A DNA stretch of 64,000 bases from Nocardioides sp. R-C-SC26 (GTDB taxonomy: Bacteria; Actinomycetota; Actinomycetes; Propionibacteriales; Nocardioidaceae): assembly GCF_021246465.1 (NCBI RefSeq), contig NZ_JAHRHK010000003.1, positions 115,025-179,024 of the forward strand, in the 5' to 3' direction. Made by a program: the position numbers and the translations under genes. Under the pieces are notes generated by a model, which had not been told where the DNA came from, searched no databases, and saw nothing but the letters and a program-made list of their open reading frames with translations. This document shows positions 3,362-57,537 of this stretch, piece by piece (positions within the stretch are counted from its first letter, which is position 1; each line of letters starts with the position of its first letter).

Positions 3362-3420
3362 GAGGCCGCGCCAGCGGACTCCACCTCACCGCCGACGCCC
3401 GTCGCACGAGGCGTGCGCGG

Positions 3421-3573
3421 TCAGGCCGACGGGGCCACGCCGAGGATGCGGTCGATCTCGTCGGCCGACAACGGGCCCTCGGACTCGGTCGCGGCGATGA
3501 TCAGGTTCGTGGTGAGCTCGACCTCGCCGAGCAGGTCGACGTCCTCCAGCGACACGTCGAACTGGTCGTACAT
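3421..3573 (-). CDS. small acidic protein, 50 aa
   Basis: A 50 aa protein, strongly acidic and predicted helical, ending LSADEIDRILGVAPSA. The ATG is preceded by GGGAGGA at 5 nt, which sets the start and rejects longer readings. The DEIDRILG ending resembles short sigma-interacting or regulatory actinobacterial proteins, but no family is assigned. Confidence 0.6.
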   Translation of the reverse strand: MYDQFDVSLEDVDLLGEVELTTNLIIAATESEGPLSADEIDRILGVAPSA

Positions 3574-3767
3574 GGGTCCTCCCCACCTCTGCTGCCCCCG
3601 AATGGCCGTGCTGACCACCCTACGCCGCACGCGTGAGGCAGGCCGATGGCTAGATCGGGCCATTCCCACCTGACGCCGTTCTGACGGATCGAACCGGTCG
3701 CCGAAAAGCAACGGACTGCGGCCCGGCGCCCCGCAGGACGACGAGCCGCAGCCCGGTGTTGCGTGTG

Positions 3768-3799
3768 TGATCTAGCTAGGCGTACCTAGGGGCAGATCA
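3768..3799 (-). terminator. imperfect hairpin at end of csp
   Basis: Outer arms TGATCT/AGATCA and inner arms TAGG/CCTA form an interrupted stem that includes the csp stop codon. A second GC stem (CTGCGGC/GCCGCAG) follows further downstream near 3716-3751. Together they plausibly end the cold-shock transcript. Confidence 0.45.
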
Positions 3800-4000
3800 G
3801 ACAGCGCGGACGTTCTCCGCCTGCGGGCCCTTCGGGCCCTGGGTGACGTCGAACTCGACCTTCTGGTTCTCGTCGAGGGACTTGTAGCCCTGCGTCTGGA
3901 TGGCCGAGTAGTGCACGAAAACGTCGTCGCCGCCGTCCTCCTGCGCGATGAAGCCGAAGCCCTTCTCAGCGTTGAACCACTTCACGGTGCCCTGAGCCAT
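3797..4000 (-). CDS. cspA: cold shock protein (CspA family)
   Basis: 67 aa, a single cold-shock domain with RNA-binding motifs RNP1 (KGFGFIA) and RNP2 (VFVHYSAI). It is a nucleic-acid chaperone that melts mRNA structure. AGGAG lies about 11 nt before the ATG. The gap of about 300 bp upstream leaves room for the long structured leader usual in csp mRNAs. Actinobacteria carry several paralogues, so this need not be the cold-inducible one. Confidence 0.95.
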
Positions 4001-4316
4001 AGTGCTCGTTACTCCTTGTATCGGGGCGAGAGCCGCCACCTCGGCGACCCACAGCAGGCGCGGTGACACGTCGCTCCGATCCGTGATTGGTAGCACCACA
4101 AAGCAGAAACGCCGTCGGATCACAAACTCCGCGGGCGTCAGACCAGCTGGAACTTGCACCTGTTGCAGTACTGACACTACCGGCAACTTCGCTCTCGCCC
4201 ACCGTCCGGGGCGATCCAATTTCGGCAGCTCCCGTGAACTTCTGTCGACGGAGCGGTAACCACGGACGAGCGCACGCGGCTCGCGAGGGGCCGGAGCGAG
4301 CCTCGGAACGTGTCAG

Positions 4317-5351: not shown

Positions 5352-5669
5352 GTGTTCGACCGGGCGATGAGTTGCAGGCGTGACGGCGACGTCCTCGTCG
5401 TCGCCGGCACGATCGACGAGCACCGGATCACCGATCTCGACGACGAGGTCAGCAAGTACCTGGCCGAATGCCCGTCCGGGACGATCGACGTCGGCGCCGT
5501 GGAGTTCCTGCCGAGCGCGGCGATCGGCGTCCTGGCCATGGCATGGTCGCGAGCGATCCAGCGTGGCGACGGCCTGACGCTCGTCGCTCCTCCCGGCACC
5601 CACGCAGCGACCACATTGACGATCAGCGGGCTCCCGGTCTCCGCGACGCGCCCGACGTCGGGCGACTGA
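5352..5669 (+). CDS. STAS-domain anti-sigma factor antagonist-like protein
   Basis: 105 aa with a STAS fold: VVAGTIDEH, then FLPSAAIGVLAMA, where the Ser after FLP sits at the usual phospho-acceptor position of SpoIIAA/RsbV proteins. It would bind an anti-sigma kinase such as the RsbW-like protein encoded convergently at 5706-6125. The GTG start lies 6 nt behind TACATT, so it is probably leaderless. The partner is inferred from proximity only. Confidence 0.8.
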   Translation: MFDRAMSCRRDGDVLVVAGTIDEHRITDLDDEVSKYLAECPSGTIDVGAVEFLPSAAIGVLAMAWSRAIQRGDGLTLVAPPGTHAATTLTISGLPVSATRPTSGD

Positions 5670-5705
5670 ACCGACCTGCGGACGCTGGTGTCGCGGCCGC
5701 GGCCG

Positions 5706-6125
5706 TCAGTCGCGGACGATCGCGGTGACGGTGGTGCCGTCGGAGGTGTCCACGGTCCACGAGGCGCTGACGGCGTCGACGACGAGGAGCCCACGCCCAC
5801 CGGCGTCTGAGAGAGAAGCACGTTCCAAACGAGGGAGACCGGTGCCCCCGGCGTCGGTCACCGAGACGGCGACCACGCCGTCGATGACCCACCACCGCGC
5901 GCAGACACGGTCCTCCTCGTCCGGCACGCCGTGGATCATCGCGTTCATCAAGAGCTCGCTCAGCACCACGACGGCATTGCGCACCACCTGCTCGGAGCAG
6001 CCGGCAGCGACGAGCTCGTCGGCGAGCTGACGGCGCGTGATCGAGATCGCGGGTACCTCGCAGGGCACTGCGACCTCGGTGCCCTTGGCACCGCTGGCGG
6101 TGATGAAGTCTGAGAAGCGCGGCAT
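5706..6125 (-). CDS. RsbW-like ATP-binding regulator (anti-sigma kinase family)
   Basis: 139 aa HATPase_c_2 protein. The N-box is ELLMNAMIHG, G1 is DAGG and G2 is GGRGLLVVD, all intact, so ATP binding is expected. Such proteins bind a sigma factor or phosphorylate a STAS antagonist. AAGGTGG precedes the ATG. It faces the STAS gene, with the two stop codons 36 bp apart. Whether it binds a sigma factor is unknown. Confidence 0.82.
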   Translation of the reverse strand: MPRFSDFITASGAKGTEVAVPCEVPAISITRRQLADELVAAGCSEQVVRNAVVVLSELLMNAMIHGVPDEEDRVCARWWVIDGVVAVSVTDAGGTGLPRLERASLSDAGGRGLLVVDAVSASWTVDTSDGTTVTAIVRD

Positions 6126-6168
6126 CGTGGTCCACCTTCCGTTCGATTCGGACGCGTGGGGTCGGCGA

Positions 6169-7113
6169 TCAGCGTCGATGAGGATGGTCGACGTAGGCGA
6201 GGACCCGGTTGAACAGCGACGTCGCGAGCATCGGGTCTGGTCGGGCATCGGGCGGCGACTCGAGGTCGGCGACGACGCCAGCGGCGCCGAGGACCCCTGC
6301 ATCCGCCGCGATCGCCGCGCACACCCGGGCGGCGTCACGGACGGCGACCGGCTCGACGGTCCACATCGCCTCGAAGAGCCGATCCCGGTCGGGGACGTCG
6401 TGCTGCCCTGGGAGTTCCCACGCCGAGAGCGCCGCCGGGAGGTCGGCGCTGTCGCACACGACCGTCCACTCCCGCCGCATGGGGTGATCGGCGGCCAGCG
6501 GCACCAGGTAGGGGAGTTCGGTCGTGGCGAGCTCCCGCGGAAAGTCGGCGAAGACGAACGTCGAGGCGGTCGTGCGCGCAAGATCGGTCCAGCGCTGCTC
6601 GGCCGCCGCGTAGTGACGTTGCAACTGGAACGAGCCGAACACGTGCGCCCGGTGGGACCGGGCACAGAACTCGTCCTCGATCGCCCACGACAGACCGATC
6701 AGGGTGGACTTGCGCAAGCGCTGGGCGGCGAGATGAGGGTGGCTACGACGCAACCGGGCGAAGACCGACGGCGGCTCCGCCCGGCGTGCGTGAGCGCCGC
6801 CTGTCGACACAGCCGGTTCGCCACCACCGGAGAGGGGCGCGTCGGTGCCGGCGAGCACGTGCCGGATCGCGACGTCGAGACGGACACCGCCGTCGCGGTT
6901 CGCCACCACCGTCTGAACGGTGGCGACCAACGACTCCGGATAGCGGCGATGGCCGGAGGGAAGACGATGAGGAACAGGGAACCCGTATCGGGTCTCCCAC
7001 ACGCGCAGGGTCGCCGCGGACACACCCGTACGATCAGCGAGCTCGCCGATGGTCAGGCCGGCGGCCTCATCCGGCCGCAGCTCGTTCTGCTCAGCATTCG
7101 ACAGCGCGTTCAT
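6169..7113 (-). CDS. MerR-family regulator with DICT sensory domain
   Basis: 314 aa. The N-terminal MerR winged helix (LTIGELADRTGVSAATLRVW then GFPVPHRL.SGHRRY) is followed by a linker and a DICT domain (about residues 130-300, containing LIGLSWAIEDE and FVFADFP). DICT is linked in prokaryotes to cyclic-nucleotide or light signalling. The start is placed at ATG 7113, which has GAGGA just upstream; ATG 7134 would add 7 residues. The RsbW-like gene follows 43 bp downstream and may be co-transcribed. Confidence 0.85.
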   Translation of the reverse strand: MNALSNAEQNELRPDEAAGLTIGELADRTGVSAATLRVWETRYGFPVPHRLPSGHRRYPESLVATVQTVVANRDGGVRLDVAIRHVLAGTDAPLSGGGEPAVSTGGAHARRAEPPSVFARLRRSHPHLAAQRLRKSTLIGLSWAIEDEFCARSHRAHVFGSFQLQRHYAAAEQRWTDLARTTASTFVFADFPRELATTELPYLVPLAADHPMRREWTVVCDSADLPAALSAWELPGQHDVPDRDRLFEAMWTVEPVAVRDAARVCAAIAADAGVLGAAGVVADLESPPDARPDPMLATSLFNRVLAYVDHPHRR

Positions 7114-7221
7114 GACATCCTCATCATTGCGCATCCCAACTTCTACGCCGTGTCTAGACCTTGACGGTGCGCGGCCTCCGGTGCGGTCGTGGCGTCAGCC
7201 TCTTCTCGCGGACCTCGCTCG

Positions 7222-7902
7222 TCAGGACACGAGGGCCTCAGCGCTCGGGTCCGCCCCGAGGCCGCGGGCAAGGCCCCACAGCACGGCCTGAGTGCGACGC
7301 TCGACGCCCATCTTCCGGTAGGCGCTGCGGATGTAGGTCTTCACGGAGTTGATGCTCAGTTGCAGCTCCTCGCCGATCTCGCGATTGCTGTGGCCGGCCA
7401 CGATCAACGCCACGATGTCGGCCTCGCGCGGCGTGAGCCCGGCGTCATCGACGAACGTGACGGCCTCGGCCTCGACGATCTCGCCCGCAGCCTCGGCGCC
7501 CGATGCCATCGCGACCACCGGGACCTCGGCGCGCTGCGCAGGCTCCTCGAAACGACCGTCGACGAGCTTCTCCACCGAGACCACGAGCTGAGAAGCGGTG
7601 AGGGACTTGGAGAGCAGGGGGTTGGCCGGCTGCGCGGGGAGCTGGTCGCGTCCGGCCCAGGTGTAGACCGCGGCCTGGGCGTGACCGGCGGTCTGCAGGT
7701 CGCGCAGGAGCGAGGCCGACATACTGGACTGCCCCATCGGCTCGTACAGCACGGCGTCGAGCTCGGCGGGGCGCGCGATGGCGTCGCGGTAGTCGAGGAC
7801 CACGACGCGCTCGGCGTAGGGCTCCAGCAACTTGGCGAATCCGGCCTGGGCCAGGTCGCTGTCGTCGACCAGCGTGATCTGCAGCGGAGCGTTCATAGCC
7901 AT
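7222..7902 (-). CDS. LuxR-family response regulator with atypical receiver
   Basis: 226 aa. The N-terminal half is receiver-like (TLVDDSDLAQAGF has the acidic pair), but the phospho-acceptor strand reads DAVLYEP, with Glu where Asp is expected, and the later Lys lies in LLSKSLTA. The C-terminal LuxR helix-turn-helix (LTPREADIVALIVAGHSNRE through VKTYIRSAYRKMGV) is complete. GGAGG sits 5 nt before the ATG. No histidine kinase is adjacent, so phosphorylation-independent action is plausible. Confidence 0.87.
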   Translation of the reverse strand: MAMNAPLQITLVDDSDLAQAGFAKLLEPYAERVVVLDYRDAIARPAELDAVLYEPMGQSSMSASLLRDLQTAGHAQAAVYTWAGRDQLPAQPANPLLSKSLTASQLVVSVEKLVDGRFEEPAQRAEVPVVAMASGAEAAGEIVEAEAVTFVDDAGLTPREADIVALIVAGHSNREIGEELQLSINSVKTYIRSAYRKMGVERRTQAVLWGLARGLGADPSAEALVS

Positions 7903-16696: not shown

Positions 16697-16720
16697 TGGC
16701 ACCCCCAACGGGATTCGAAC
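16697..16720 (-). other. tRNA 3'-end fragment, putative att site
   Basis: On the minus strand the segment reads as T-loop TTCGAAT, half T-stem, acceptor 3' arm TGGGGGT, G73 and encoded CCA. Upstream of the T-loop G53 the sequence does not fold as a tRNA (the 5' T-stem cannot pair). This is the expected footprint of phage integration into a tRNA gene. The orientation predicts that the intact tRNA, on the minus strand, lies at the far (right) prophage end. Isotype not determined. Confidence 0.6.
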
Positions 16721-40153: not shown

Positions 40154-40363
40154 CTAGGAGGCGGCTGCAGCGCCGAGGATCTCCATCGCACGGGCCTCAT
40201 CGATGAGGTCCCACTCACCGGTGAACCGGATCTCCAGACCCAGCCCATCGTGGGTGATCCACCGGCTCTCAGCCCAGTTGAAGCACTCGGCGACGGCGTT
40301 CTCCCCGGGCGCGATACGCGCCACCATTGAGGTGCCGTTCAGCCAGTACTCCACGCTCATCAT
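40154..40363 (-). CDS. 69-aa acidic protein coupled to MuF toxin; candidate immunity protein
   Basis: 69 aa with net negative charge (about 11 Asp/Glu against 4 Arg), three Trp and a short helical end (LIDEARAMEILGAA). Its start (tandem ATG ATG) overlaps the MuF-RelA/SpoT stop codon, so it is translated only where the large gene is translated. It has no resemblance to a known head protein. Position and charge suggest an immunity/antitoxin partner of the C-terminal toxin-like domain. This is inference. Confidence 0.6.
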   Translation of the reverse strand: MMSVEYWLNGTSMVARIAPGENAVAECFNWAESRWITHDGLGLEIRFTGEWDLIDEARAMEILGAAAAS

Positions 40364-41967
40364 GGTAGCCAGCGCGGAGGGTCCGGCATAGCGACAGCGA
40401 GGTACATCTCAATGATCTTCCGCTCGAGCTCGGCCCTGCGCGCGGGCGCGATGCCGTCGGCCCGCGCCTCCTCGTAGATCAAGTGGCTCGCCTCCGCGAC
40501 AGCCAGGCTCGCGGCGGTATGGACCTGCAACTCGAAGGTGACACCCGACGGCGACCGGAGCGCCAGGTTCATGCCGCGATAGCCCTCGCGCCGCCAACCG
40601 GCCGGGACCTTCACCGGCCGGTATCCCGCGGCGCTCAAGACCGCGACGGTCTGGTCGACGATCTGCCAGTAGCGCTCATTGGGCGCCACCATCGTGTAGC
40701 GGAGCGCGTCCTTGATCTCCGCTGCACGATCGGCTGCTGTCATACCGCTGGTCCCGATCTGGGTGATCAGTTTCCTGGTCAGTGAGTCGAGGCTCTTCAG
40801 CCTCGAGTCGAGCCGCACCAGGTCACCGCCGACGGTTGCCGCGGTCGCTCGCACCATCTCCGTCGTCGCGGGTTCCACACTCTCGGCGAGGCGCAGCAAC
40901 TCACGTGCGGCTGCCCGAGCGTCGTCATCGGCGCCTCCGGCGTTGACCGGGCGCGGTGCGCCTGGTCCGCCGCCTCGGCCAGCGTTCCCTCGACCTGCTG
41001 CGAGCGACCGGCCACGCCCAGGAGCACCGGCGGATGGGAGCCAGCCGTACAGGCCGAGCAGTCGCCGCGCCTGTTCGCGATCGCCGCCGAACTCCGCGTC
41101 GACGATCCGGTAGATCGCCTCTGGCCGAAGTCGCACCGGACGGGATGGGTTGTTCCTCCGCCACTGGGCTCGCTTGGTGGTGCCGAAGGTCGTCGCCTTC
41201 ACGCGGCGCCCATACAGCGTCGTGGTGAGCGCGTTGGTGATGCCCGGCTGTGAGGTGCCGCGAGTGGCGTTCACGATCTGGCTCAGGTCGGCGCCCTCGA
41301 GCAGCGCCTGGCGATCCGACTGCGACAGGTCGCGGATCAGTCCCTGCTCGACGAGCACCATCGGGTCGACCACGAGCCCATCGGCCAGCGCCTCGTCCAG
41401 GGAGGCCACCGGCCAGTGCTCGCAGTCGCACCCCGGGTGCCGGTCGAAGGGCTCCATGTCGCGGTAGATCCGCCCCGCCAGGACCGCGCACCGCTTGCAC
41501 GACGGCGGCACAAGGAGCCGGATGAACTCCTGCGGGCGAGGCTGGGCGAGCATCTCCAGCTGCGCCGCGGCACGTGAGGCGTCCTGGATCTCCGAAGCCA
41601 CCAGCAACTCGACCGAGCGCAAGAACGAGGACGTGTCGTCGTCCCACCACGGCGACGGCATCGCCTCGGCCGGCGCGGGAACGCGCGCGTCGATCGTCGC
41701 GATCAGCGGCTCGGCCAGGTCGAAGCCGAGCGAGGAGACTCCCGCGAGCAGTTCGACCGCACCCGAGGGCGGCGCGCCGAGCACCTGCGTGATCGTCCGC
41801 GAGGACGCCGTGGCCGCCGCGAGCTGGTAGGCCGCCCACGAGCTGACGACCTCGGCCCACGGAGCCTGCTGCTCGATCTTCGCGGCTACCGCCCGCGCAC
41901 CGGCCGCGGCGATCGCGGCCTGCCGGGCGTGGTAGCTACGAGCCTGTCGCTGACGGCTCGAGGCCAC
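40360..41967 (-). CDS. MuF-like minor capsid protein fused to RelA/SpoT nucleotidyltransferase domain
   Basis: 535 aa. The N-terminal part is MuF-like, containing CKRCAVLAGRIYRDMEPFDR and HPGCDCEHW (about 158-186), the Cys/His cluster of actinophage MuF proteins, which sit in the procapsid near the portal. After a Gly/Arg-rich linker (about 310-345), the last 150 residues carry the alarmone-synthetase landmarks in order: RLKSLDSLTRKL (R389 to about 400), IKDALRY (D420), GYRGMN (463-467), FELQVHT (E479, Q481) and VAEASHLIYEEA. A (p)ppGpp/(p)ppApp synthetase or tRNA-pyrophosphokinase toxin is predicted. The GTG start overlaps the portal end by 32 bp. Confidence 0.85.
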   Translation of the reverse strand: MASSRQRQARSYHARQAAIAAAGARAVAAKIEQQAPWAEVVSSWAAYQLAAATASSRTITQVLGAPPSGAVELLAGVSSLGFDLAEPLIATIDARVPAPAEAMPSPWWDDDTSSFLRSVELLVASEIQDASRAAAQLEMLAQPRPQEFIRLLVPPSCKRCAVLAGRIYRDMEPFDRHPGCDCEHWPVASLDEALADGLVVDPMVLVEQGLIRDLSQSDRQALLEGADLSQIVNATRGTSQPGITNALTTTLYGRRVKATTFGTTKRAQWRRNNPSRPVRLRPEAIYRIVDAEFGGDREQARRLLGLYGWLPSAGAPGRGRSLAAGRGNAGRGGGPGAPRPVNAGGADDDARAAARELLRLAESVEPATTEMVRATAATVGGDLVRLDSRLKSLDSLTRKLITQIGTSGMTAADRAAEIKDALRYTMVAPNERYWQIVDQTVAVLSAAGYRPVKVPAGWRREGYRGMNLALRSPSGVTFELQVHTAASLAVAEASHLIYEEARADGIAPARRAELERKIIEMYLAVAMPDPPRWLP

Positions 41968-43421: not shown

Positions 43422-45158
43422 TCACATCGAGAAGTTCAGCTGCGGGAGCTCCTGCTCCCGTGCTCCGCCACGAACCACACCGTCGAGCGCGGTCACCGCG
43501 GCCTGGATGCCGTCGATCCGCGTGCTGGACTTCTTGCGGTCGGGCTTGACCGGCCGGATGTTGTCGTAGCCGTCGTTCTTGATCTCCACCACAGATGCCA
43601 TCCACCGCAGCACCGGGTTCGCGCCGTGGCGGAACTTCGCCGACCCCAGCAGCCGCTCCAGCTCCTTGCACGCCGGCGAGAGGCCCATGAACGTCTGCGC
43701 GACGGGCACGACGTCCAGACCCTCCATCTCGGCGTCGAGCTCTTGAACCATCTGGCCGGCGAACATGCGGTCGTAGGAGACGCGCTGCATGTCGAAGTGG
43801 CGGCAGTCGCTGATCACCGTGGACTTGATCGCCGAGTAGTCGATGACGTCGCCGTCGGTGGCGGTCACGAAGCCTTCGTCGATCCACCGTTGCAGGGGGA
43901 CCTGCAGCTTGGCCTGGAGAACCTCGACGCGGTCGCCGGGCACCCAGAACCGGGTGAGCAGGTCGTACTCGCCGGCGCGCTCGGCCTCGACCCACACCGC
44001 CCAGGCCGAGAAGTCCGAGACCGCCGAGAGGTCGAGCCCTCCCCACGCTCGGCGGCCCCGCAGGCGCGGGCGACTGACCGGTGCGGAAGCGTGCTCCTCG
44101 TCCCACTTGGCCAGGTCGAGCCACTTCATCTGGTCGCGCGTGCGCAGATTCAGCGACAACCGCAGGTAGGTCGGCAGGTACGTCGGGGTGTTCTTGGCCT
44201 TGTTCGCCTCGCCACGCAGATAGGTCCACGTCGGCGACTTCCCCGCGCCCGGGTTGGCCTTGGCCATCGTTGCCTCGGAGAACGGGTCGTCGCTCTCCTC
44301 GGCGGCCCAGATCACGCCGTAGTGCGTCGGGTCCTCGATGACGCTGTTGGCGACGTTGCGGGTGTAGGTGTGCTTCTCGTCGTAGATCGTGTCTTCCTCG
44401 GCCTCGTCGGCCGTGGTGATGAAGATGATCAACGGCTGGTCACGAGCACCGACACCGGTCTCGATCGCCTCGACGAGCGCCCGACGCAGACGCAACGTGT
44501 GCACCTCGTCGATCACCGCGCCGGAGACGTTGAGGCCGTGAGCGGTCTCAGCGACGCGCGAGAGGACCCGCAGGATGCTGCCGTTGCGCGGCACCCGCAC
44601 GACTTCCTTCAGCGGCTCGATCCGCTTGCGGGCCGAGGGCGCGGTCATCAGCATCCGCTTGGCGTCCTCGAACACCCGCCCGGCCTGCAGCGTCGAGCCG
44701 GCCGCGTTGTACACCTCGGCGCCGGCCTCGCCATCGGCGAGAAGCAGCACGCCCGAGATGCCTGATGCGAAGGTGCTCTTGCCGTTCTTGCGTGGGATCT
44801 CGATCCACACCTGGCGGATCACGCGCACGACGCGGTCGACCTCGGCGTCGTAGTAGACCCAGCCGAAGATCGGTGCGAGAACCCACACGATCTGCCACGG
44901 GTCGAGGCCTTCGCCGACCCGCATGCGGACGCCCGCCCAGCGGCCCTTGGTGTGCCGGAACGCGCCGATCGCGCGCAACGCCTTCCGCGCCCGATCGACG
45001 TCGTAGTAGGCGTCGGGGTGCTGGTCGGCTTGGAATGCAACGACGAGCGGCCGGCGGGCGAGAGCCGCCTCGATGTCCTCCTCGGTCAGCCCGAGTTCGA
45101 GCAGCGCCTCGCGCGGGACCGGGAGAGTGTCGTCAGTCGTCGAACGGGTCGTCGTCAT
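43422..45158 (-). CDS. terminase large subunit
   Basis: 578 aa packaging motor. The ATPase P-loop is PRKNGKST (K124-K127), Walker B is GAVIDEVH (D217, E218) and the coupling region is FITTADEAEEDTIYDEK. The C-terminal RNase H-like nuclease has WGGLDLSAVSDFSAWA with acidic residues and a later D in YSAIKSTVISDCRHFD. Complete. Overlaps the small subunit by 26 bp. Confidence 0.95.
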   Translation of the reverse strand: MTTTRSTTDDTLPVPREALLELGLTEEDIEAALARRPLVVAFQADQHPDAYYDVDRARKALRAIGAFRHTKGRWAGVRMRVGEGLDPWQIVWVLAPIFGWVYYDAEVDRVVRVIRQVWIEIPRKNGKSTFASGISGVLLLADGEAGAEVYNAAGSTLQAGRVFEDAKRMLMTAPSARKRIEPLKEVVRVPRNGSILRVLSRVAETAHGLNVSGAVIDEVHTLRLRRALVEAIETGVGARDQPLIIFITTADEAEEDTIYDEKHTYTRNVANSVIEDPTHYGVIWAAEESDDPFSEATMAKANPGAGKSPTWTYLRGEANKAKNTPTYLPTYLRLSLNLRTRDQMKWLDLAKWDEEHASAPVSRPRLRGRRAWGGLDLSAVSDFSAWAVWVEAERAGEYDLLTRFWVPGDRVEVLQAKLQVPLQRWIDEGFVTATDGDVIDYSAIKSTVISDCRHFDMQRVSYDRMFAGQMVQELDAEMEGLDVVPVAQTFMGLSPACKELERLLGSAKFRHGANPVLRWMASVVEIKNDGYDNIRPVKPDRKKSSTRIDGIQAAVTALDGVVRGGAREQELPQLNFSM

Positions 45159-45603
45159 CCGGACCGTCCGGACGCGAGAGCCCAGCGGCGGCCCGCGGCG
45201 AGAGCCCGAGCTCGCCGACGAGCGACCGGAAGTGCGACCGGTACTGGTTGAGGACCGTCGTGCGGGGGTTCTTCACCAGGCCGCCCTTGGCACCCTCGAT
45301 GAGCATGCCCTCCTTGGTCAGCGCCTTCTCGTTCTGCACGATGCGCGCCCAGGTGACGCAGAAGTCGACGAGCGTCTCCTGCTGCTCACCGACCAGACCG
45401 ACACTGCGCGAGAGCGACGGCGCCAGCTTGCGCCACAACGCACGCGCACGATCGGCCTCGGCCCGGTCCAGCATGCTCGTCCACGACGGCTCCCGGAGCT
45501 CGCTCGGCGGCATCACCACCGAGTCCTTCAGCGAGCGCTTCCCAGGGTTGCCCTCACGCACGGCAGCCAGGTGCGGCTTGCGGTTGTGGCCTCCAGAGCC
45601 CAT
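45133..45603 (-). CDS. terminase small subunit (P27 family)
   Basis: 156 aa. The P27-type N-terminus (KPHLAAVREGNPGKRSLKDS) and LVDFCVTWARIVQNEKALTK fit the family that recognises pac/cos DNA. The start is ATG 45,603, behind GGGGGTGG. Confidence 0.9.
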   Translation of the reverse strand: MGSGGHNRKPHLAAVREGNPGKRSLKDSVVMPPSELREPSWTSMLDRAEADRARALWRKLAPSLSRSVGLVGEQQETLVDFCVTWARIVQNEKALTKEGMLIEGAKGGLVKNPRTTVLNQYRSHFRSLVGELGLSPRAAAGLSRPDGPDDDDPFDD

Positions 45604-45690
45604 CGAGACCACCCCCTAGCCGGGACCAAAATCGGGTTTGCTGCGGGTGTACGAAATAGCCTCCCCCGCGGTCCTCACGGCCGAGGGGCC

Positions 45691-46062
45691 CTAGGGGGTC
45701 GCCCCCACCCCTCGACGGTGGACACGATGCGGGCAGCGACGCTCACCCGGCGCCGCTCGGCGCTTCGCGGTGGCGTAGTTGCAGGGCGGGCACTCGGGAC
45801 CGTGGTAGACGCGGCGGTCGTTGTCGCAGTGGCCGAGCGTCCAGTTGTCCGAGTCGATCGGCCGGTCGCATCGCCAGCATCGGTAGGTCTCGCCAGCATC
45901 CATCCTGGCCTGATGCTTGGCCCTCAGACGCTCGTGGCGGGCGCCGTAGCCACGCTGCTGCCTGCTCCCGCGCTGCTCCTCCCGAGCACGCCGGTGCACC
46001 GCGCAGTCGCTGCGGTTCGGGCAGCCAGGCGAGCGACATGGACCGAGAATTCGCGAGGGCAC
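45691..46062 (-). CDS. HNH endonuclease
   Basis: 123 aa. CWRCDRP, then LGHCDNDRRVYHGPECPPCN gives the HNH core with two zinc CxxC pairs. HNH proteins upstream of P27 terminase are needed for genome cutting during packaging in several phages. The start is GTG 46,062, with AGGAGG 4 nt upstream. It is probably the first gene of the late operon. Between 46,063 and 46,228 lies the divergent control region facing the TIR gene; only a weak TTGACT element is seen on the minus strand. Confidence 0.85.
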   Translation of the reverse strand: MPSRILGPCRSPGCPNRSDCAVHRRAREEQRGSRQQRGYGARHERLRAKHQARMDAGETYRCWRCDRPIDSDNWTLGHCDNDRRVYHGPECPPCNYATAKRRAAPGERRCPHRVHRRGVGATP

Positions 46063-46228
46063 GGTCCCTCCTGAAATCACTCGCGGACGAGGCCTTCACC
46101 GTGATGAAGAGACACCTCGTCCGTCTGCAAACGATGGTGACAGAGGCGGCGCGGACAAGTCAAACCCCTCGGCCGCTATCCATTCGAAACCGTGCGGACG
46201 CTCGTGGCAGTGCCCTATGTTCCGCCGT

Positions 46229-47128
46229 GTGCCCGACGTACTTCCGCTCAAGGTATTCATCAGTTGGTCCAAGCCACCGACAGACACGATCGCGAGTGCC
46301 CTGAGCAGACTCTTGAGGCACATGTTCGACAACGTCGAACCCTTCGTGTCCAGGGATGACATCAGCCTCGGGGCACTAGGAGCAGCGGAGATTCAGAACC
46401 AGCTCGCTCAAACATCGTTCGGGATCATCGTCGTTACGCGCCAGAACCAGGCCGAACCTTGGCTCAACTTCGAAGCCGGCGCACTCGCAAAGACAGTGAC
46501 TGACGGCACGACGAGCGTCGTTCCACTGCTCATCGATATGTCGGACCCCTCACAGCTCCGGGGCCCGATGTCAGGACTCCAGTCTCACGCCGCCACCGAA
46601 GCCGGAGTACGTCGCCTGGTCAACCAGATTGGCGACGTCGTCAGCGCTCGACCGGAGGCGGTTGATGGCCGCTGGGCTGGCGCATGGGCGGAGTTCTCAC
46701 TCCTCCTCGATGAGTCGCGCGAGCACCTAGCGCAAGAGCCTGTTGAAGATCGAACGCTTGAAGACATGGTGCAGGAGTTGCTGGCTCTCACCCGCAACCA
46801 GGCCCGGGCCAGGCCGGCGGAAGATGAAACCTTCTCGGCACTCCGAGATCATCTACGAGGAGAGTCGTTCACGCCCTATCGAGCGGTGAGTGATGCCCTT
46901 GAAGAGGAGCTACGGGATCTCGACGTCGAAGACTTCGCCATCAAGGTCAGGCGATCACGTAAGCCCGAAGGTGGTTCGACTTGGACCGCTATCGTCGAAT
47001 TGCCCTCTCCGCTCAGCCTGAACGTCATGAGCACGCTGAGCAGTCGACTCCCAGCCAATCCGATCCTTAGGGACGCCCGCTTAATCTTCGAGCACACGGA
47101 TAAGTCGCCTCGGGTTCGCATCCCCTGA
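46229..47128 (+). CDS. TIR-domain protein, probable anti-phage defence cargo
   Basis: 299 aa. The TIR domain is at about residues 5-135: KVFISWSK at strand A, RDDISLGAL (BB loop), and WLNFEAGALAK with the putative catalytic Glu82. The C-terminal 170 residues (helical, then beta) do not resemble a known sensor. TIR enzymes cleave NAD+ in bacterial abortive infection. It is encoded against the late/early gene direction, in lower-GC sequence. A leaderless GTG start lies 7 nt after TATGTT; ATG 46,217 would overlap the -10 box. No partner gene follows. Confidence 0.82.
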   Translation: MPDVLPLKVFISWSKPPTDTIASALSRLLRHMFDNVEPFVSRDDISLGALGAAEIQNQLAQTSFGIIVVTRQNQAEPWLNFEAGALAKTVTDGTTSVVPLLIDMSDPSQLRGPMSGLQSHAATEAGVRRLVNQIGDVVSARPEAVDGRWAGAWAEFSLLLDESREHLAQEPVEDRTLEDMVQELLALTRNQARARPAEDETFSALRDHLRGESFTPYRAVSDALEEELRDLDVEDFAIKVRRSRKPEGGSTWTAIVELPSPLSLNVMSTLSSRLPANPILRDARLIFEHTDKSPRVRIP

Positions 47129-47139
47129 CCTATTAGGCG

Positions 47140-47170
47140 GATCGTCAGACACGTTCGCTAACGGACGATC
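47140..47170. terminator. stem-loop between TIR gene and early operon end
   Basis: GATCGTC/GACGATC arms with flanking GGCGG/CCGCC lie between the convergent ends of the TIR gene and the early operon. Likely a bidirectional terminator. Confidence 0.6.
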
Positions 47171-47307
47171 ACCGCCGCGCCGCCCTCGAGGCTGGTGCGT
47201 TGTGTCAGGCCGGTGACGGCCTGGGTGGCGGAGAGCATCACGAAGTGGTGGCTGGGCATGGCGCGCAGCTCCTCGATGAACTCCTCGACGGTCATGGGTC
47301 GGGTCAT
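47158..47307 (-). CDS. 49-aa hypothetical protein
   Basis: 49 aa. The amphipathic N-terminal helix (MTVEEFIEELRAMPSHHFVM) and GAGGAG 8 nt before the ATG support it. Last gene of the early operon. Unassigned. Confidence 0.55.
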   Translation of the reverse strand: MTRPMTVEEFIEELRAMPSHHFVMLSATQAVTGLTQRTSLEGGAAVIVR

Positions 47308-47309
47308 GG

Positions 47310-48470
47310 TCAGGCTCCTCGCTTGGTGGTGGCGCGTCGGGTGCGGGTCTGGGTCTGGTCGCAGCCCTCGTACTCGCATGAGCGGATGAGGTGGACGACG
47401 TCGGTGTCGGGCTGGGCGGCCTGGGGCTTCCACTTCGACCAGGCGTGCTGGTGCCGAGCGGTGTGCGCCAGGAGCCGCGTGTAGACGGCGCCGAACCGGT
47501 AGCGGCCCGCGACGTCGGGGCTGATCTCGCCACGAGCGGCCCACTGGTTGATGCGCTTGCGGATCACCTCTGCGGTGCCGGTGACCTGGTCAGATGAGAG
47601 GTAGCCGCACAGGTGTGCGATCTCGGCCGCGGTGCAGCGTCGGTCGTCGAGCTCGGCGAGCAGCCGCTCCCGCACGGGCGCCGCCTCGACCTTGGATCCG
47701 CAGGCCCGGCAGCGTGCCCAGAATGCGCCACGGCGCGCGGTCAGCACCCCCTGCTCACAGTCGCCGAGTGGGCAGTCGCCGAGCTCGATGAGACGCGGCT
47801 CGGGCTCGAGGCGGTGCAGGGCCATGTCGACGGCGGTCGCGACCTCGGTCGGGATGTCCTCGGTGAGCGGTGAGGTGGCCATAGCGTCGACTCGCCAGGT
47901 CAGCCAGTCCGCCATCGCCGGCACGTCGCCGGGATGGGGGCGGCCGACGTGCGGGCTGGAGTGGGTGAGGTCGGCCTGGAGGCAGGCGAGCACGGCGTGC
48001 CGCAGGACCTTGCGGAGTTCGTCGCGCGCGGCGATGACACCCGGGCGGATCACGAGCGGCTGTGACTTCTTCCCGCCCTTGCCGCCGCCGGCGGTGGAGT
48101 AGTCCATGCCGCCGAGACCGGTGCGGGCCTGGTGGAGCTGCACCACGATGAACGGCACCGTCCGCAGGATCAGCGCGAGCGCGTCGAGGCAGTGGTCGCA
48201 CACGTTCGCGCCGTCACGGCCTGGTCGCTCGCACTTCCCGATGTCGCGGATCGCTCGGTCGACGTCACGGAACGCGCCCGGTGTCGCGGCGGTGCGCACC
48301 ATCCGACGCTCGACGACGATCTCGCTGATCGACCGCGGCGTCGACGTCGACGTCGATGACGGCGGGGAGGTCGCCGGCGGCGGAGGGGCGGCAGGGTCGT
48401 GGCCGCACCACTCGCACGGCCCGTCGCCACGTCGGACGACCCGACAGCGGTCGCACACCTCGGTCACCAC
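47310..48470 (-). CDS. zinc-ribbon / winged-helix phage protein
   Basis: 386 aa. N-terminal zinc ribbon (CDRCRVVRRGDGPCEWCG), a disordered Pro/Ser/Thr linker, a helical core, a second ribbon (CPLGDCEQGVL...CRACGSK, about 245-270) and a C-terminal winged-helix segment (TAAEIAHLCGYLSS...VIRKRINQWAARGEI). The architecture occurs in actinophage early genes of unknown role; DNA binding is plausible. GTG start with GGGAG 7 nt upstream. Confidence 0.7.
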   Translation of the reverse strand: MVTEVCDRCRVVRRGDGPCEWCGHDPAAPPPPATSPPSSTSTSTPRSISEIVVERRMVRTAATPGAFRDVDRAIRDIGKCERPGRDGANVCDHCLDALALILRTVPFIVVQLHQARTGLGGMDYSTAGGGKGGKKSQPLVIRPGVIAARDELRKVLRHAVLACLQADLTHSSPHVGRPHPGDVPAMADWLTWRVDAMATSPLTEDIPTEVATAVDMALHRLEPEPRLIELGDCPLGDCEQGVLTARRGAFWARCRACGSKVEAAPVRERLLAELDDRRCTAAEIAHLCGYLSSDQVTGTAEVIRKRINQWAARGEISPDVAGRYRFGAVYTRLLAHTARHQHAWSKWKPQAAQPDTDVVHLIRSCEYEGCDQTQTRTRRATTKRGA

Positions 48471-48664
48471 TTCTTGCTCCCTCGTCGTCCGGTCTTCTTC
48501 CTGGTCCCGCCGACGTGCCAGGCGCCGCAGCGGCGCTGGTAGACGTGCTGGGCCCAGGTCCCCGCTCGGCCCTCGGCACGGCGGAGCTGGTGCAGGTGAT
48601 CCATCGCGGCCTGGTGGGTCGCGTGGGCTCGTTTCGTCGGGGTGGGGCATCGCCGTCTGCTCAT
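48464..48664 (-). CDS. small basic phage protein
   Basis: 66 aa. CPTPTKRAHATHQAAMDHLH and a terminal CGAWHVGGTRKK are typical of small actinophage zinc-finger-like proteins. ATGA coupling with the upstream HNH gene. Function unknown. Confidence 0.65.
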   Translation of the reverse strand: MSRRRCPTPTKRAHATHQAAMDHLHQLRRAEGRAGTWAQHVYQRRCGAWHVGGTRKKTGRRGSKKW

Positions 48665-49962
48665 CACGGGTCCTCGGGTCGGTCGGTCGTCTCGACGGGG
48701 CGGTCGATCGACGACGGAGGCCGCGCTGCGGGTCGCGAGGTGCTCGCGGTGTCCGCGCTGCTGGCCGACGTCGGATCGGGGTCGCTCGTCGAGACCGGTG
48801 CGGTGGGGCGGGAACCTGCTCGTCGTCCTCTGCGGGCGCGACGACGTCCAGACCTCCCTGGGTTGGGATCTGCGGGTTGGGCAGGTCCGTCGGGTGCCGG
48901 TGGGCTGTGAGCTGCAGGTGGGCTGTGGGCGGTGCAGCCGCTACCCGCACCGTCCCTGTCCTGCCCTACCTGACCAGAACCCGTCCCGTCCCGACCCGAC
49001 CCGGCAGAACCCATTCCGAGAGAGTCCGATATCGAGTTCCCCGGCATATTTCGCGGCACATTTTCCGCGGCGTCTGCCGGGTCGCCTGGCCGGCCGTGGG
49101 GCGATGCGGGGTCGCGGGTCGCGCCAGTGGGCGCGGTGTCCGCGGTCGCGTCAGCCTGGTGGCCGGTGGCGTCCGGGTCGGGTCGGGTGGGTGGCGCTGG
49201 CTCCCGGTGCGGTGTCGAAGCATCGCCGTCGACGGTGGTGGGCCGCGCTGCGGGTCGCGAGGTGCTCGCGGTGTCCGCGCTGCTGGCTCCACGGCTGTCG
49301 GGGGTGATGTTCGGTCGCGTCGGGTAGCCGTTCTCGGTGAGGAAGTCGGCGGTCTTCGTGCTGTAGTTGGGGACGGCGGGCACGGGCCGCAGCGGGTGGT
49401 CCTCGTCCCACTGCGGGTTGTTCCTCCGGGCGCCGTTGCAGCGCCGGCATGCGACGACGAAGGTGTCGACGGTGGCGGCCTTGCCCGGCTCGCGGTGGTC
49501 GAGCTCGGCTGAGCGGTTGGACTTGCGTCCGAGCCACTGCACGAGCACCCCGCAGTAGCGGCAGTTGTCGCCGTCGCGCCGGCGCACGGGCACCGTGAGC
49601 GCGAGCTCGCGGATGTCCCGGTTCCGCTGCCGGTCCCACTCGACTTCGGCCTTGGTGCGGATGTGGATGAACTCGTCGTCCTTGACGATCTCCCAGTGGT
49701 CGATCCCGTCGACCGGGCACACCTTCAGCAGGCCAGCGCGGAGACACCACTCGACGAGCTTCGGTGTGCGGGCGCCACCGAACATCGCCGCGGTGCCCGG
49801 GTCGATCCGGTAGTCCGTCAGGTGCGCGGCCGACTGGATCGCGCACGCCATCAACCACCCGAACACCTCGCGCACCGCGCGCTCGTCCGCGCCCGGGTAC
49901 CCAGCGATCTGCATCATCGTCGGGTACGTCGAGGCCTGGTCGCCTACGCGCAACCATGGCAC
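48664..49962 (-). CDS. HNH-containing putative replication-region protein
   Basis: 432 aa. The N-terminal 110 residues resemble phage replisome-organizer winged helices (FGWLMACAIQSAAHLTDY). An HNH nuclease module follows (CRYCGVLV...AELDHREPG...VVACRRCNGARRNN, about 130-180). The C-terminal 230 residues are Pro/Ser/Thr/Arg-rich and disordered. The two SSADTASTSRPAAR copies there come from a 47-bp DNA duplication. GTG start. Either a homing-type nuclease or a replication-region factor. Confidence 0.7.
   Translation of the reverse strand: MPWLRVGDQASTYPTMMQIAGYPGADERAVREVFGWLMACAIQSAAHLTDYRIDPGTAAMFGGARTPKLVEWCLRAGLLKVCPVDGIDHWEIVKDDEFIHIRTKAEVEWDRQRNRDIRELALTVPVRRRDGDNCRYCGVLVQWLGRKSNRSAELDHREPGKAATVDTFVVACRRCNGARRNNPQWDEDHPLRPVPAVPNYSTKTADFLTENGYPTRPNITPDSRGASSADTASTSRPAARPTTVDGDASTPHREPAPPTRPDPDATGHQADATADTAPTGATRDPASPHGRPGDPADAAENVPRNMPGNSISDSLGMGSAGSGRDGTGSGQVGQDRDGAGSGCTAHSPPAAHSPPAPDGPAQPADPNPGRSGRRRARRGRRAGSRPTAPVSTSDPDPTSASSADTASTSRPAARPPSSIDRPVETTDRPEDP
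48719..48765. repeat. 47-bp direct repeat, copy 1
   Basis: 47 nt identical to 49,241-49,287, 522 bp apart in the same reading frame of the HNH gene. Perfect identity points to a recent duplication or gene-conversion event. Recombination between the copies would delete 174 codons in frame. Confidence 0.9.
49241..49287. repeat. 47-bp direct repeat, copy 2
   Basis: Second copy of the repeat at 48,719-48,765. It encodes the same ASSADTASTSRPAAR peptide. Confidence 0.9.
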
Positions 49963-49963
49963 G

Positions 49964-50395
49964 TCAGCCGTCCTCTCGGGTGGTGGGGATCTCGTCGAGC
50001 CAGGACGGGTCCTGGTCGATGAGCAGGAACCGGATCCGGTAGATCCCGGTCTTGTCGGGCTTGGGGTCGCGCAGGTGGGTGGGGCCGAGCACGGTGCGGC
50101 TGTCGTCGTCGGGCCACACGCCGGCGTCGACGAACCCGTCGATCAGCGCCTTCGTCGTCGGTGCAGCGTTCATCGGGTCCGCGCGGCCGAGCTTCGGGTA
50201 GCCGATGTACGCCACGACGTGCGTGGTCCCGAGGTCCCGGATCCGGGCGTTGCGAGCCGAGACGAACCCCAAGCCCCGCAGCGCGCGGGTGTAGGTCGCG
50301 CGCTTCATGTGGTGGAGACGGTCGTTCAGCGAGAGCCACCAGATGTCGGGCACGTCGATCGTCAGCGACCGAGACTGCCGGGAGGCGCCGGTCAT
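49964..50395 (-). CDS. rusA: RusA-family Holliday junction resolvase
   Basis: 143 aa. NDRLHHMKRATYTR at the N-terminus, then the catalytic acidic cluster RADPMNAAPTTKALIDGFVD...WPDDDSR with RusA-type Asp residues. It resolves branched DNA in phage recombination and packaging. One base separates it from the HNH gene. Confidence 0.88.
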   Translation of the reverse strand: MTGASRQSRSLTIDVPDIWWLSLNDRLHHMKRATYTRALRGLGFVSARNARIRDLGTTHVVAYIGYPKLGRADPMNAAPTTKALIDGFVDAGVWPDDDSRTVLGPTHLRDPKPDKTGIYRIRFLLIDQDPSWLDEIPTTREDG

Positions 50396-55107: not shown

Positions 55108-55385
55108 GGGCCACTCGCCGCCTCAGGCGAGACCGGCGCGCCGTGGCGGCCGAAGTCGTGGCCGCCCCAGATGCCCCATTGCTCACGCCGCTCGACGGCA
55201 GCCGCGAGGCACGCCGCCCGGACCGGGCACTCGCCGCAGACCGCGAGCGCGCGGAGGCGCTGCGGATGGTTCGGGTCCGAGGACCGTGGGAACCACGCCG
55301 CTGGGTCGGACTTCCTGCACGCCGCGACGGCGTGCCACGCGGGCACGACCGCGTCGACCATCTCGTCGAACGCTGCGAGCGTCAT
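55104..55385 (-). CDS. whiB: WhiB-family iron-sulfur transcription factor
   Basis: 93 aa. The four cluster-binding Cys (C23, C50, C53, C59) and the GIWGG turn (about 72) are all present. WhiB proteins bind [4Fe-4S] clusters and contact the sigma-A subunit. Phage WhiB proteins can repress host whiB genes and exclude other phages. Located in the middle of the early operon. Confidence 0.93.
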   Translation of the reverse strand: MTLAAFDEMVDAVVPAWHAVAACRKSDPAAWFPRSSDPNHPQRLRALAVCGECPVRAACLAAAVERREQWGIWGGHDFGRHGAPVSPEAASGP

Positions 55386-57325
55386 GCGGCACCGACCAAG
55401 GCTTCGGCCACGGCGGCGATGAGGTCGCGCGCGGCGGGCGGGGTGACGGCGTTGCCGGCGAGCTTCACGCGCTCGCGGCGGGTCCCGGCCCACTGGTAGT
55501 CGGCGGGGAACGCCATGCCGGCGGCGATCTCGTGAGGCTCGAGCATACGGAACAGGCAGTCGTCGACCTGGGCAGCGGCGGCCTCGATGTCGCCGGGCGT
55601 GAGGATCGCCGTCGTGCCCTTCGTGGTGAGGGTCCGCAGCTCCTCGCTCACCGGGGTGGTCGCCCACGCGTCGTTTCCGGTGGTGCCGTTCAGCCGGTGG
55701 ATCAGCGCGTGCTTCTCGACGGTGGTGACGGTGCCGAGGGGCTCCGACGCCGGGCGGGCCGAGGGGCTGCCGGAGTAGTACGGCATCACCAGCGCCGACG
55801 TCTCGCGGGTCGTCATTGTGCGGTGCGGGTCGCTCGTCGGGTGTGCGTCGTCGTTCCACGTCCCGCCGGCCGGGCACACGAGGCCGTGGTGGGTACCCGA
55901 GGCGGTGAACGTCGCCGCGGGCTGCTCGACCGACCGGGCCGTCGACCCGCCGCCACGGAGCTCGGCGATGAACGGCTGGACCAGGGCCTTGCTCGTGTCG
56001 TTGGCCGTCACCGTCGAAAGCGGCTCGTCGACCTCGCGGGTGCGGTACTCGAACCGACGGTCGAGCAGGAACGGCGGCTCGAGGAGCGACATGTTCCCGC
56101 CGGACGCGGTGATCGTGCGCAGCGCCTCGTCGGCGGGCTTGCTGTGCCGTGCGGCGTCACCACCGGGGATGCCGTAGTGGCGGGTCACGATCGGTGGCCC
56201 GACCAAAGCGTCGAGGTGACGGCTGGTCTGGGTGCGCAGCGGGTCCTGGTCGGTCTTCACCCGGTCGCCGGCGCGGCCTTCGAGCGGGACGACGAGCGCC
56301 TTCGACTCGACGGTGTGGAGGGTCCGGAGGACGTCGTCGGCGGCCCACGCGCGGTAGTAGGCGTTCGGGTCGCCGTGCGAGGGGTGCTTGGGGTCGGCCG
56401 CGTCGTACTGGTTGCCGCCCTTCTCGATGTGGAACGGGCGCCAGTAGCGGGCGATCCCGGCCGCGATGCGACGTCGGGTCTTGTCCGCGAGCGGCTTGGT
56501 GCGGTCACCGATCCGCTTCCCCGCCAGCGTCCAGTCGATCGCCGCAGCGGCCGGAAGGTAGCCCGGCTCGACGGTGGTGCCACAGCCGTCGTGCACGTAG
56601 ACGTACTGGCTGCGGTACTTCCCGACCGTGCGGCCGTTCTTCCACGCCTGCCGCGACTCCACGACGCCCTGGCACATCGGGCACCACGCCAGCGGGCGCA
56701 GCACCGCGTCGATGTTCGGCGCCCGGTCGCCGCGGCGCCAGCACACGATGTAGAGCCGGTCACGCGACTGCGGCGCCGGGTCGCCGTGCGCCTGGGCGTG
56801 CATCGAGTTGAGCGAGACGATGCGGTGCTCGTAGCCGAGGTTCCGCAGGCCCTTGCGCCACAGCGTCCACGCCTCGGCGTACTTCGGGTTGGTCGCGATG
56901 TCGACGACGTTCTCGATCACCATCGCGCGGTAGCGGTGGTGCTCGGCGAAGCGGAGCACGTCGAACATCAGCAGCCGCGAGCGCTGCACGATCGCGGTCT
57001 CGGGGTCCTCCTCGACCAGGTCGGGGTCGAGCAGGTCCAGGAGGTTCGTCTCGACCGAGACCGAGGAGTACTTCCCACCTGAGGCCTGCGACCACTTCGT
57101 GCACTCCGGCGACGCCCAGAGGATGTCGGTGCGGGGGAAGAACCGCGGGTCCTCCTCGTGCAGGTCGGCCGCCGCGTGGTCGGCGTCGGGGTGGTTGGAG
57201 TTGTGGACCTCCACCGCCAACGGCCAGTGGTTCGCGGCCATGCGGATCTCGACACCCGGGATCTGCGTCATGCCCGTCGACGAGCCGCCACCACCACAGA
57301 ACAGGTCCGTCACCGACAGCGTCAT
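55382..57325 (-). CDS. C5-cytosine DNA methyltransferase with repeat domain
   Basis: 647 aa. SAM motif LFCGGGGSSTGM (8-19), catalytic Cys75 in WASPECTKWS (a PEC rather than the usual PC), ENV motif 138-140, QSRDRLY, a zinc site (CPMC, HDGCG) and C-terminal GNAVTPP. Between about 329 and 600 lie eight degenerate repeats of 27-38 residues with the consensus (D/E)PLxTxTxxxxxALV, in place of a normal target-recognition domain. It likely shields phage DNA from restriction. ATG start coupled by ATGA. Confidence 0.9.
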   Translation of the reverse strand: MTLSVTDLFCGGGGSSTGMTQIPGVEIRMAANHWPLAVEVHNSNHPDADHAAADLHEEDPRFFPRTDILWASPECTKWSQASGGKYSSVSVETNLLDLLDPDLVEEDPETAIVQRSRLLMFDVLRFAEHHRYRAMVIENVVDIATNPKYAEAWTLWRKGLRNLGYEHRIVSLNSMHAQAHGDPAPQSRDRLYIVCWRRGDRAPNIDAVLRPLAWCPMCQGVVESRQAWKNGRTVGKYRSQYVYVHDGCGTTVEPGYLPAAAAIDWTLAGKRIGDRTKPLADKTRRRIAAGIARYWRPFHIEKGGNQYDAADPKHPSHGDPNAYYRAWAADDVLRTLHTVESKALVVPLEGRAGDRVKTDQDPLRTQTSRHLDALVGPPIVTRHYGIPGGDAARHSKPADEALRTITASGGNMSLLEPPFLLDRRFEYRTREVDEPLSTVTANDTSKALVQPFIAELRGGGSTARSVEQPAATFTASGTHHGLVCPAGGTWNDDAHPTSDPHRTMTTRETSALVMPYYSGSPSARPASEPLGTVTTVEKHALIHRLNGTTGNDAWATTPVSEELRTLTTKGTTAILTPGDIEAAAAQVDDCLFRMLEPHEIAAGMAFPADYQWAGTRRERVKLAGNAVTPPAARDLIAAVAEALVGAA

Positions 57326-57537
57326 GCCTCCACCTCGCAGCTCGGGCACGTGACGAACCCCATGACCCGCTGGGCATCGGCGTTCTTGCTCAACACGACT
57401 CCGCACCGAGTACGGACCTGCACGCTGTACCCGACCGTGTCGTCCCCGACGACGTGCACCGACCAGTCGTGCTGGACGCGACGCTTACCGAGCCGATAGA
57501 CGGTTCGGGGCTCGACCAGGGCGAGAGCGCTGCTCAC
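57322..57537 (-). CDS. 71-aa hypothetical protein
   Basis: 71 aa. A beta-rich core and Cys pairs (TRCGVVL, TCPSCEVE) suggest a small zinc ribbon. GTG coupled by GTGA. Unassigned. Confidence 0.6.
   Translation of the reverse strand: MSSALALVEPRTVYRLGKRRVQHDWSVHVVGDDTVGYSVQVRTRCGVVLSKNADAQRVMGFVTCPSCEVEA

Follow-up and report, generated by a model that had tools for sequence, protein, structure and literature searches.

What does a TIR-domain gene do when it stands on the plus strand of a prophage, between late and early genes that lie on the minus strand, and could such a gene serve as a defence system by itself? The gene in question (46229–47128, plus strand, GTG start, 299 aa) was found in a window of 64,000 nucleotides from Nocardioides sp. 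R-C-SC26, and it was assigned by TIR_2, PADLOC TIR-TM, phrog_13899 and an AlphaFold2 model. The surrounding prophage is approximately 50.3 kb long and bounded by perfect 23-bp repeats at tRNA-Glu. The left att repeat is located at 16698–16720, and the second copy, 3 kb past the window end, is the 3′ end of tRNA-Glu and lies beside a tyrosine integrase.

The first late-side gene beside the TIR gene encodes an HNH endonuclease (45691–46080, minus strand; phrog_1808, E 1.3e-6) with 41% identity to the last gene product of Arthrobacter phage Judy. It is accompanied by the terminase small subunit (45133–45612, minus strand; Terminase_4, E 5.7e-18) and the terminase large subunit (43422–45158, minus strand; Pfam), the latter 74–75% identical to those of the best-matching Arthrobacter phages, and a portal-like protein on the late side matched Pfam below the cut-off. 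On the early side, a small ORF (47158–47544, minus strand), called mechanically only, converges on the TIR gene with 30 bp between the ends of the two ORFs, and had no homologue among PDB sequences or in phage Judy. A second HNH gene (HNH2, 48664–49962, minus strand) and a RusA-like Holliday junction resolvase (49964–50395, minus strand; phrog_9203, E 2.1e-12) are also located on this side, and the remaining ORFs between the TIR gene and HNH2 are minus-strand and unassigned. Elsewhere in the window, an ORF at 40360–41967 resembles a head protein (VG15) and, in its C-terminal region, RelA/SpoT (E 6e-4), both matches falling below the cut-off. A DNA methyltransferase ORF of 674 aa (55382–57406) has approximately 220 residues left unaligned between its two matched halves, an insertion that may be an intein or a nuclease domain.

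The ORF map and base composition agree with the sequence-only reading, which described a plus-strand gene of lower GC with minus-strand genes on both sides. The TIR gene has a GC content of 0.602 and a GC3 of 0.683, against a GC3 of 0.80–0.95 in eight other prophage genes that we chose. A ninth prophage gene measured, encoding a cyclase-like protein beyond the window end, had a GC3 of 0.669, similar to that of the TIR gene, and by their low GC3 both genes look like later arrivals in the prophage. An in-frame ATG at 46217, upstream of the GTG at 46229, would give a 303-aa version of the protein. This ATG sits within the hexamer TATGTT (46216–46221, plus strand), which precedes the GTG by 7 nt and would be the −10 element of a leaderless promoter, and for this reason we favour the GTG as the start.

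To judge this promoter signal, the motif TANNNT was counted 4–9 nt 5′ of possible starts in the G+C-rich part of the family. It was present in 17 of 37 distinct members, window included, against 198 of 9028 (2.2%) ATG/GTG triplets of the same loci, in a comparison where members are related, each has zero to five candidate starts, a few matches fall at unlikely starts, and TTG was counted among the family's candidate starts but not in the background. The same pattern is seen in L002, the nearest relative, which comes from Nocardioides sp. 503. The comparison therefore lends support, short of proof, to the gene having its own leaderless promoter; a sigma-70 promoter scan at the TIR gene found none. 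The terminator also claimed for the gene was not supported. A terminator scan after the gene gave a single match, and that on the minus strand, with none on the plus strand and 0.7 in all expected from shuffled sequences; the region folded no better than shuffles (z 0.04).

The TIR domain occupies 46247–46645 (plus strand; approximately residues 11–143, ATG numbering), as indicated by Pfam and the model fold, with a TIR_2 score just above the cut-off (29 vs 28 bits). In the AlphaFold2 model, built with 44 sequences (mean pLDDT 83.9), the TIR domain leads through a pair of linker helices to a C-terminal alpha-beta-beta-alpha unit, with a weakly predicted stretch at about residues 203–217 before this unit. 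The solved structure nearest to the TIR domain was that of SPARTA TIR-APAZ (Z 16.2, rmsd 3.5, 146 aligned), and the match to SpbK (Z 13.9, rmsd 3.1, 149 aligned) was tied with those to SARM1, MyD88 and other TIRs. The putative catalytic Glu (codon 46472–46474, plus strand; E82 from the GTG, E86 from the ATG) is invariant in 44/44 aligned sequences, comprising the window protein and 43 relatives hand-chosen from L002 and L014–L093 (alignment A2); L008 and L010 were left out of alignment A1. It occupies the WxxFE/NYE position expected of TIR NADases and lines up with the Glu in AbTIR's "WTNYE" segment, which we take to be the catalytic Glu of that protein. One degraded-looking relative outside the 44-sequence alignment (L010, in G480) has Ala at this position. 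The description of a complete TIR domain with a putative catalytic Glu82 thus stands, and the protein is predicted from its fold and catalytic-type Glu to be an NADase.

The TIR domain is followed by a conserved helical linker (46652–46810, plus strand; helices at residues 146–173 and 181–198, ATG numbering). Residues 11–197 (ATG numbering) match both PADLOC TIR-TM (PDLC03016, E 4.8e-34) and phrog_13899 (E 3.8e-37), a family without a function label. These matches cover positions 1–193 of 293 in the former profile and 1–189 of 275 in the latter, so that the last third of each is unmatched by the window protein.

What remains is a C-terminal region of approximately 105 aa (46811–47125, plus strand), a putative sensor with a predicted alpha-beta-beta-alpha(-beta-beta) layout. 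It had been put at about 170 unrecognised residues, a figure that shrinks since the two profiles extend through residue 197. Structure prediction gave an alpha/beta unit in both models, that of the whole protein, where confidence is low at residues 203–217 and 297–303, and that of the C-terminus alone (pLDDT 73.3). The region had no match in Pfam, among phage or plasmid records, or among PDB sequences, and Foldseek with the C-terminus model returned nothing at E 1e-3. VIA-align ranked PilO first (Z 8.0, rmsd 5.9, 97 aligned), followed by EpsM (Z 7.3, rmsd 2.7, 70 aligned); a phage neck protein (Z 6.1), lambda gpU (Z 6.0) and PII proteins (Z 5–6) came further down. Because such a level is common among unrelated folds, these middling matches count neither for nor against a known fold, a phage structural one included. 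A membrane anchor was considered and rejected, as no 19-residue window from residue 190 onward had a Kyte-Doolittle value as high as 1.6 in the proteins examined. Of the new sensor domain that had been suggested, these searches show a lack of family and sequence matches, and the sensing would be a role that we infer.

Relatives of the protein recur in phages. Two phages, mEp390 and AC1 (four records), gave tblastn matches, as did 12 plasmid records. The DNA of the TIR gene and its surroundings had no match in phage records. A plain-protein search found one relative in genome contigs and none in viral contigs; an alignment-based search of viral contigs (IMG/VR) found 123, of which 80 were kept. 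Only the protein of L002 is a fairly close relative, with 61% identity in the TIR domain and 23% in the C-terminus. Counting the own genome, a relative was present in 4/396 genomes of a phylum sample, 6/294 of a family sample and, at E 1e-20, 8/391 of an order sample.

Like the window gene, many relatives are placed against the direction of their neighbours. The TIR relative of mEp390, like that of an E. coli prophage, is a solitary gene between antiterminator Q and holin and runs opposite to them, and the P2-like phage AC1 also carries its relative as phage cargo. Six of 73 distinct IMG/VR loci had no neighbour on one side; in 26 of the other 67, the TIR gene had two opposite-strand neighbours, an arrangement seen for 24 of 375 other genes (Fisher p 4e-11, to be taken as a guide only because gene calls are crude and loci related). 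Both neighbours were on the same strand as the TIR gene in 24/67. Among downstream neighbours (63 scanned of 144), antiterminator Q families were commonest (phrog_79 and phrog_943, seven each, possibly the same proteins). Upstream neighbours (70 scanned of 141) included no family more than three times, with late activators the commonest and endolysins and holins at two. These neighbour counts rest on genes from our own crude caller and leave out the truncated loci L057, L067 and L079.

The C-terminus is the variable part of the family. When 80-aa pieces of 87 proteins, window included, were compared (E 1e-3), TIR pieces matched in 3741/3741 pairs, a figure partly built in because the loci were collected by TIR similarity. 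A piece over most of the linker matched in 2181/3741 pairs and C-terminal pieces in 42/3741, with 52 C-termini matching none; the window C-terminus formed a component of its own. L008, L010, repeat-search duplicates (L094–L096, L101) and open-ended or short proteins were left out of this and the following comparison. Close pairs, a comparison less affected by the TIR-based collection, gave the same picture: in 24 pairs with a TIR identity of 0.80–0.98, some of them near-duplicate loci, the C-terminal identity was 0.17–0.59. Pairs above 0.985 TIR identity were not included, and the five such pairs examined were alike in both parts.

The pair L074/L081 indicates how such differences may arise. 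Its TIR domains are 96% identical and its C-termini 40%, and the DNA aligns across the gene at 79%. The dN was 0.03 for TIR plus linker and 0.56 for the C-terminus, with similar dS (1.34 and 1.31) near saturation, which looks like fast change in place and not recombination. Sequence comparison thus supports the view that the C-terminus changes far faster than the rest of the protein. Positive selection on the C-terminus was not detected, dN/dS being <1 wherever computable; with this ratio and dS near saturation, an arms race explains the data no better than relaxed constraint does.

Whole alleles also appear to be exchanged. Five IMG/VR loci (L014, L016, L017, L019 and L031) have a downstream neighbour protein that is 92–95% identical, and their TIR domains are 35–52% identical in 9/10 pairs and 99% identical in L016/L017. 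In all nine unlike pairs, DNA identity is back to 93–95% at 9–53 nt past the stop codon. On the other side, the nearest upstream stretch is 92–97% identical and ends 2–50 nt within the gene in six of the nine, and in the other three the upstream match extends approximately 260 nt into the gene at 75–78%. The clearest pair is L014/L019, with 96% identity over 640 nt before the gene and up to 9 nt into it, and 95% from 45 nt after the TIR stop; in several of the other pairs, a segment a few hundred nt upstream is unlike as well. We read this pattern as the probable replacement of a single TIR gene at a fixed site, and the swapping of alleles between near-identical flanks argues against an obligatory adjacent partner gene. 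The product of the conserved downstream gene of this set (257–259 aa) looks like an ArdA antirestriction protein.

Gene order in related phages likewise suggests gain or loss at the window's own site. Two loci (L110 and L111), with genes from the same crude caller, have the order HNH2, zinc-finger-like protein, HNH, TerS and TerL without a TIR gene, in keeping with the proposed insertion between late and early modules. They are 89% identical to each other in one shared protein and each 26–73% identical to the window's proteins, and given this distance from the window and their close mutual kinship they count as gene-order evidence, not as an exact empty site. No TIR gene was seen in 21 viral relatives found by TerS (L104–L124), many of which cover little DNA on that side. 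Phage Judy was tried as an empty-site comparison and set aside: only HNH and TerL match there, and the small ORF, its neighbouring ORF and RusA are without a match.

The sequence-only reading had claimed that the usual Thoeris, CBASS and SIR2/Argonaute partners are missing. This agrees with our searches: with Pfam models, the TIR protein itself matched TIR families only, and none of seven scanned neighbours was recognisable as a partner from a Thoeris, CBASS or Argonaute system. The early-side pair of ORFs closest to the gene had no match among PDB sequences. Thoeris ThsB is a TIR protein in phage defence; no ThsA gene was recognised beside the window gene. SPARTA TIR-APAZ, the best TIR fold match, also has its TIR domain at the N-terminus, but its Argonaute gene was not recognised here by Pfam, which may hold no APAZ model. 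For CBASS/Pycsar, CAP12-PCTIR_TIR scored below the cut-off (16.4 vs 24.7 bits) with no other domain, and the nearest cyclase-like gene is 17.5 kb away. A search of the own genome for the ThsA domain STALD gave no match, and no positive control responded in it either.

The cyclase-like gene was set aside as a TIR partner because of this distance and because it is paired with another gene. It lies just past the window end in the same prophage (L128:1662–2684), had no Pfam or PADLOC match, and by our reading carries the class III cyclase-like motifs DLVGST ... GDELIF. It overlaps a peptidase gene (L128:1198–1689) whose product is 48% identical to an annotated ImmA/IrrE peptidase. A Mycolicibacterium plasmid (L136) carries the same overlapping pair, as does G518 (L130) on inspection by eye, and the pair is possibly a second cargo system of the prophage.

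The only SIR2_2 match in the own genome was on another contig, unlinked to the prophage. There, on contig C27 (L135, 52500–62500), a second TIR gene (3410–4201) is followed by an integrase-like ORF, identified by eye, and a SIR2 gene (5431–7363) whose frame seems to shift near the middle. This may be a decayed defence locus.

The one tested relative is that of phage AC1. Rousset et al. (2022; PMC9122126) describe a TIR gene in AC1 together with transmembrane proteins; the locus of three cloned genes protects against lambda, LF82_P8 and P2, and the authors propose a messenger acting on the membrane proteins. We take the TIR protein of the published locus to be that of L012, from the AC1 record. 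It is homologous to the window protein (39% over window residues 11–122) and is likewise phage cargo at a variable site, but its C-terminus cannot be aligned with that of the window. Two membrane-protein genes precede the AC1 TIR gene, whereas the window gene has HNH and minus-strand ORFs as neighbours. A tblastn search with the two membrane partners (E 1e-3) matched only L012 itself among the window and L001–L101. Since the AC1 locus has two more genes, it offers no proof of single-gene activity in the family. For the one-component system that had been suggested, the part concerning partners is strengthened, with none recognised adjacent and allele exchange arguing against one, and the part concerning activity is tempered by the three genes of the only tested relative.

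The best explanation, to which we give a probability of about 0.6, is that the TIR gene is temperate-phage cargo encoding a one-gene abortive-infection immune receptor. The leaderless-promoter signal directly before the gene makes transcription apart from the phage operons possible, and the protein would be made in the lysogen and stay idle. Its C-terminus would then bind a component of an invading phage, the binding would cluster the TIR domains into composite active sites that cleave NAD+, and the infected cell would stop or die before phage release. More weakly, because the gene lies antisense to the prophage's early-to-late transcription, we propose that the prophage's own lytic transcription may silence it and thereby spare its own induction; the opposite-strand loci (26/67) fit such silencing and the same-strand loci (24/67) count against it. 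The general kind is known from SpbK, described as a one-gene TIR NADase that causes abortive infection when triggered by a phage portal protein (PMC11984713, PMC12847820). SpbK of ICEBs1 (Bacillus subtilis) is likewise a one-gene TIR protein on a mobile element, but it has an N-terminal domain followed by a C-terminal TIR (as described in PMC12847820), whereas the window protein has the TIR at its N-terminus. This opposite domain order and the two membrane-protein genes of AC1 speak against the explanation.

Alternatively, the TIR domain could make a nucleotide signal (a cyclic ADP-ribose isomer) for an effector encoded elsewhere, as in Thoeris and as the AC1 authors proposed for their locus, which we consider unlikely. 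In favour, AC1 has two membrane-protein genes beside its TIR gene, on whose products a messenger is suggested to act (PMC9122126). The unlinked host SIR2 gene near a second TIR gene could be counted on the same side, but an integrase-like ORF separates the two and the SIR2 frame may be broken. The AC1 membrane proteins, moreover, had no counterpart in the window or the other loci searched, and alleles are swapped at a fixed site beside unchanged neighbours.

The protein might instead work for its own prophage, either regulating it or acting as a toxin that maintains lysogeny; its C-terminus would then be a regulatory or DNA-binding module and not a sensor of invaders. Helix-turn-helix-like C-termini do occur in a few relatives (HTH_24 in L036, E 2.5e-6; HTH_23 in 3/83), but in the Pfam comparison of 83 C-termini no family matched more than three, and that of the window matches none. 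Allele exchange and the scatter of the family over many phage contigs fit cargo better than a core regulator, and we regard this function as improbable.

It is slightly more doubtful still that the C-terminus is unconstrained and the TIR domain acts alone, perhaps as a scaffold or as an NADase with constant low activity. The dN/dS values and the stretches of low model confidence would suit such a protein. Yet the C-terminus is retained, with a median of 85 aa in the 87 proteins, all of which were selected for having 40 aa or more in this part, and both models predict an alpha/beta unit for that of the window. Effectors that are directed at eukaryotes and mimic host immune signalling have been described among bacterial TIR proteins, but this family recurs in phages beside phage genes, which makes such a role here very improbable.

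Among the openly licensed PMC papers searched, none was recognised as describing the variable C-terminus of this TIR family, and within that literature we would call the architecture, the family-wide C-terminal variability and the allele exchange new. Tentatively, and at well short of even odds, the family may represent an undescribed, widespread class in which a constant TIR enzyme and linker carry a hypervariable C-terminal recognition domain, alternative alleles are swapped at fixed sites, and the gene is shut off during the phage's own lytic transcription. Phage recognition by bacterial TIR proteins is known for few systems, namely SpbK with the portal protein (as described in PMC11984713) and one staphylococcal Thoeris, whose ThsB is triggered by the capsid protein (as described in PMC11312562). 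If the proposed class is real, every C-terminus would have a phage component of its own to recognise, and the family would be a natural sensor library with one common output. One constant enzyme joined to dozens of mutually unmatched C-termini, some of them alleles of the same site, would then let sensor specificity be mapped.
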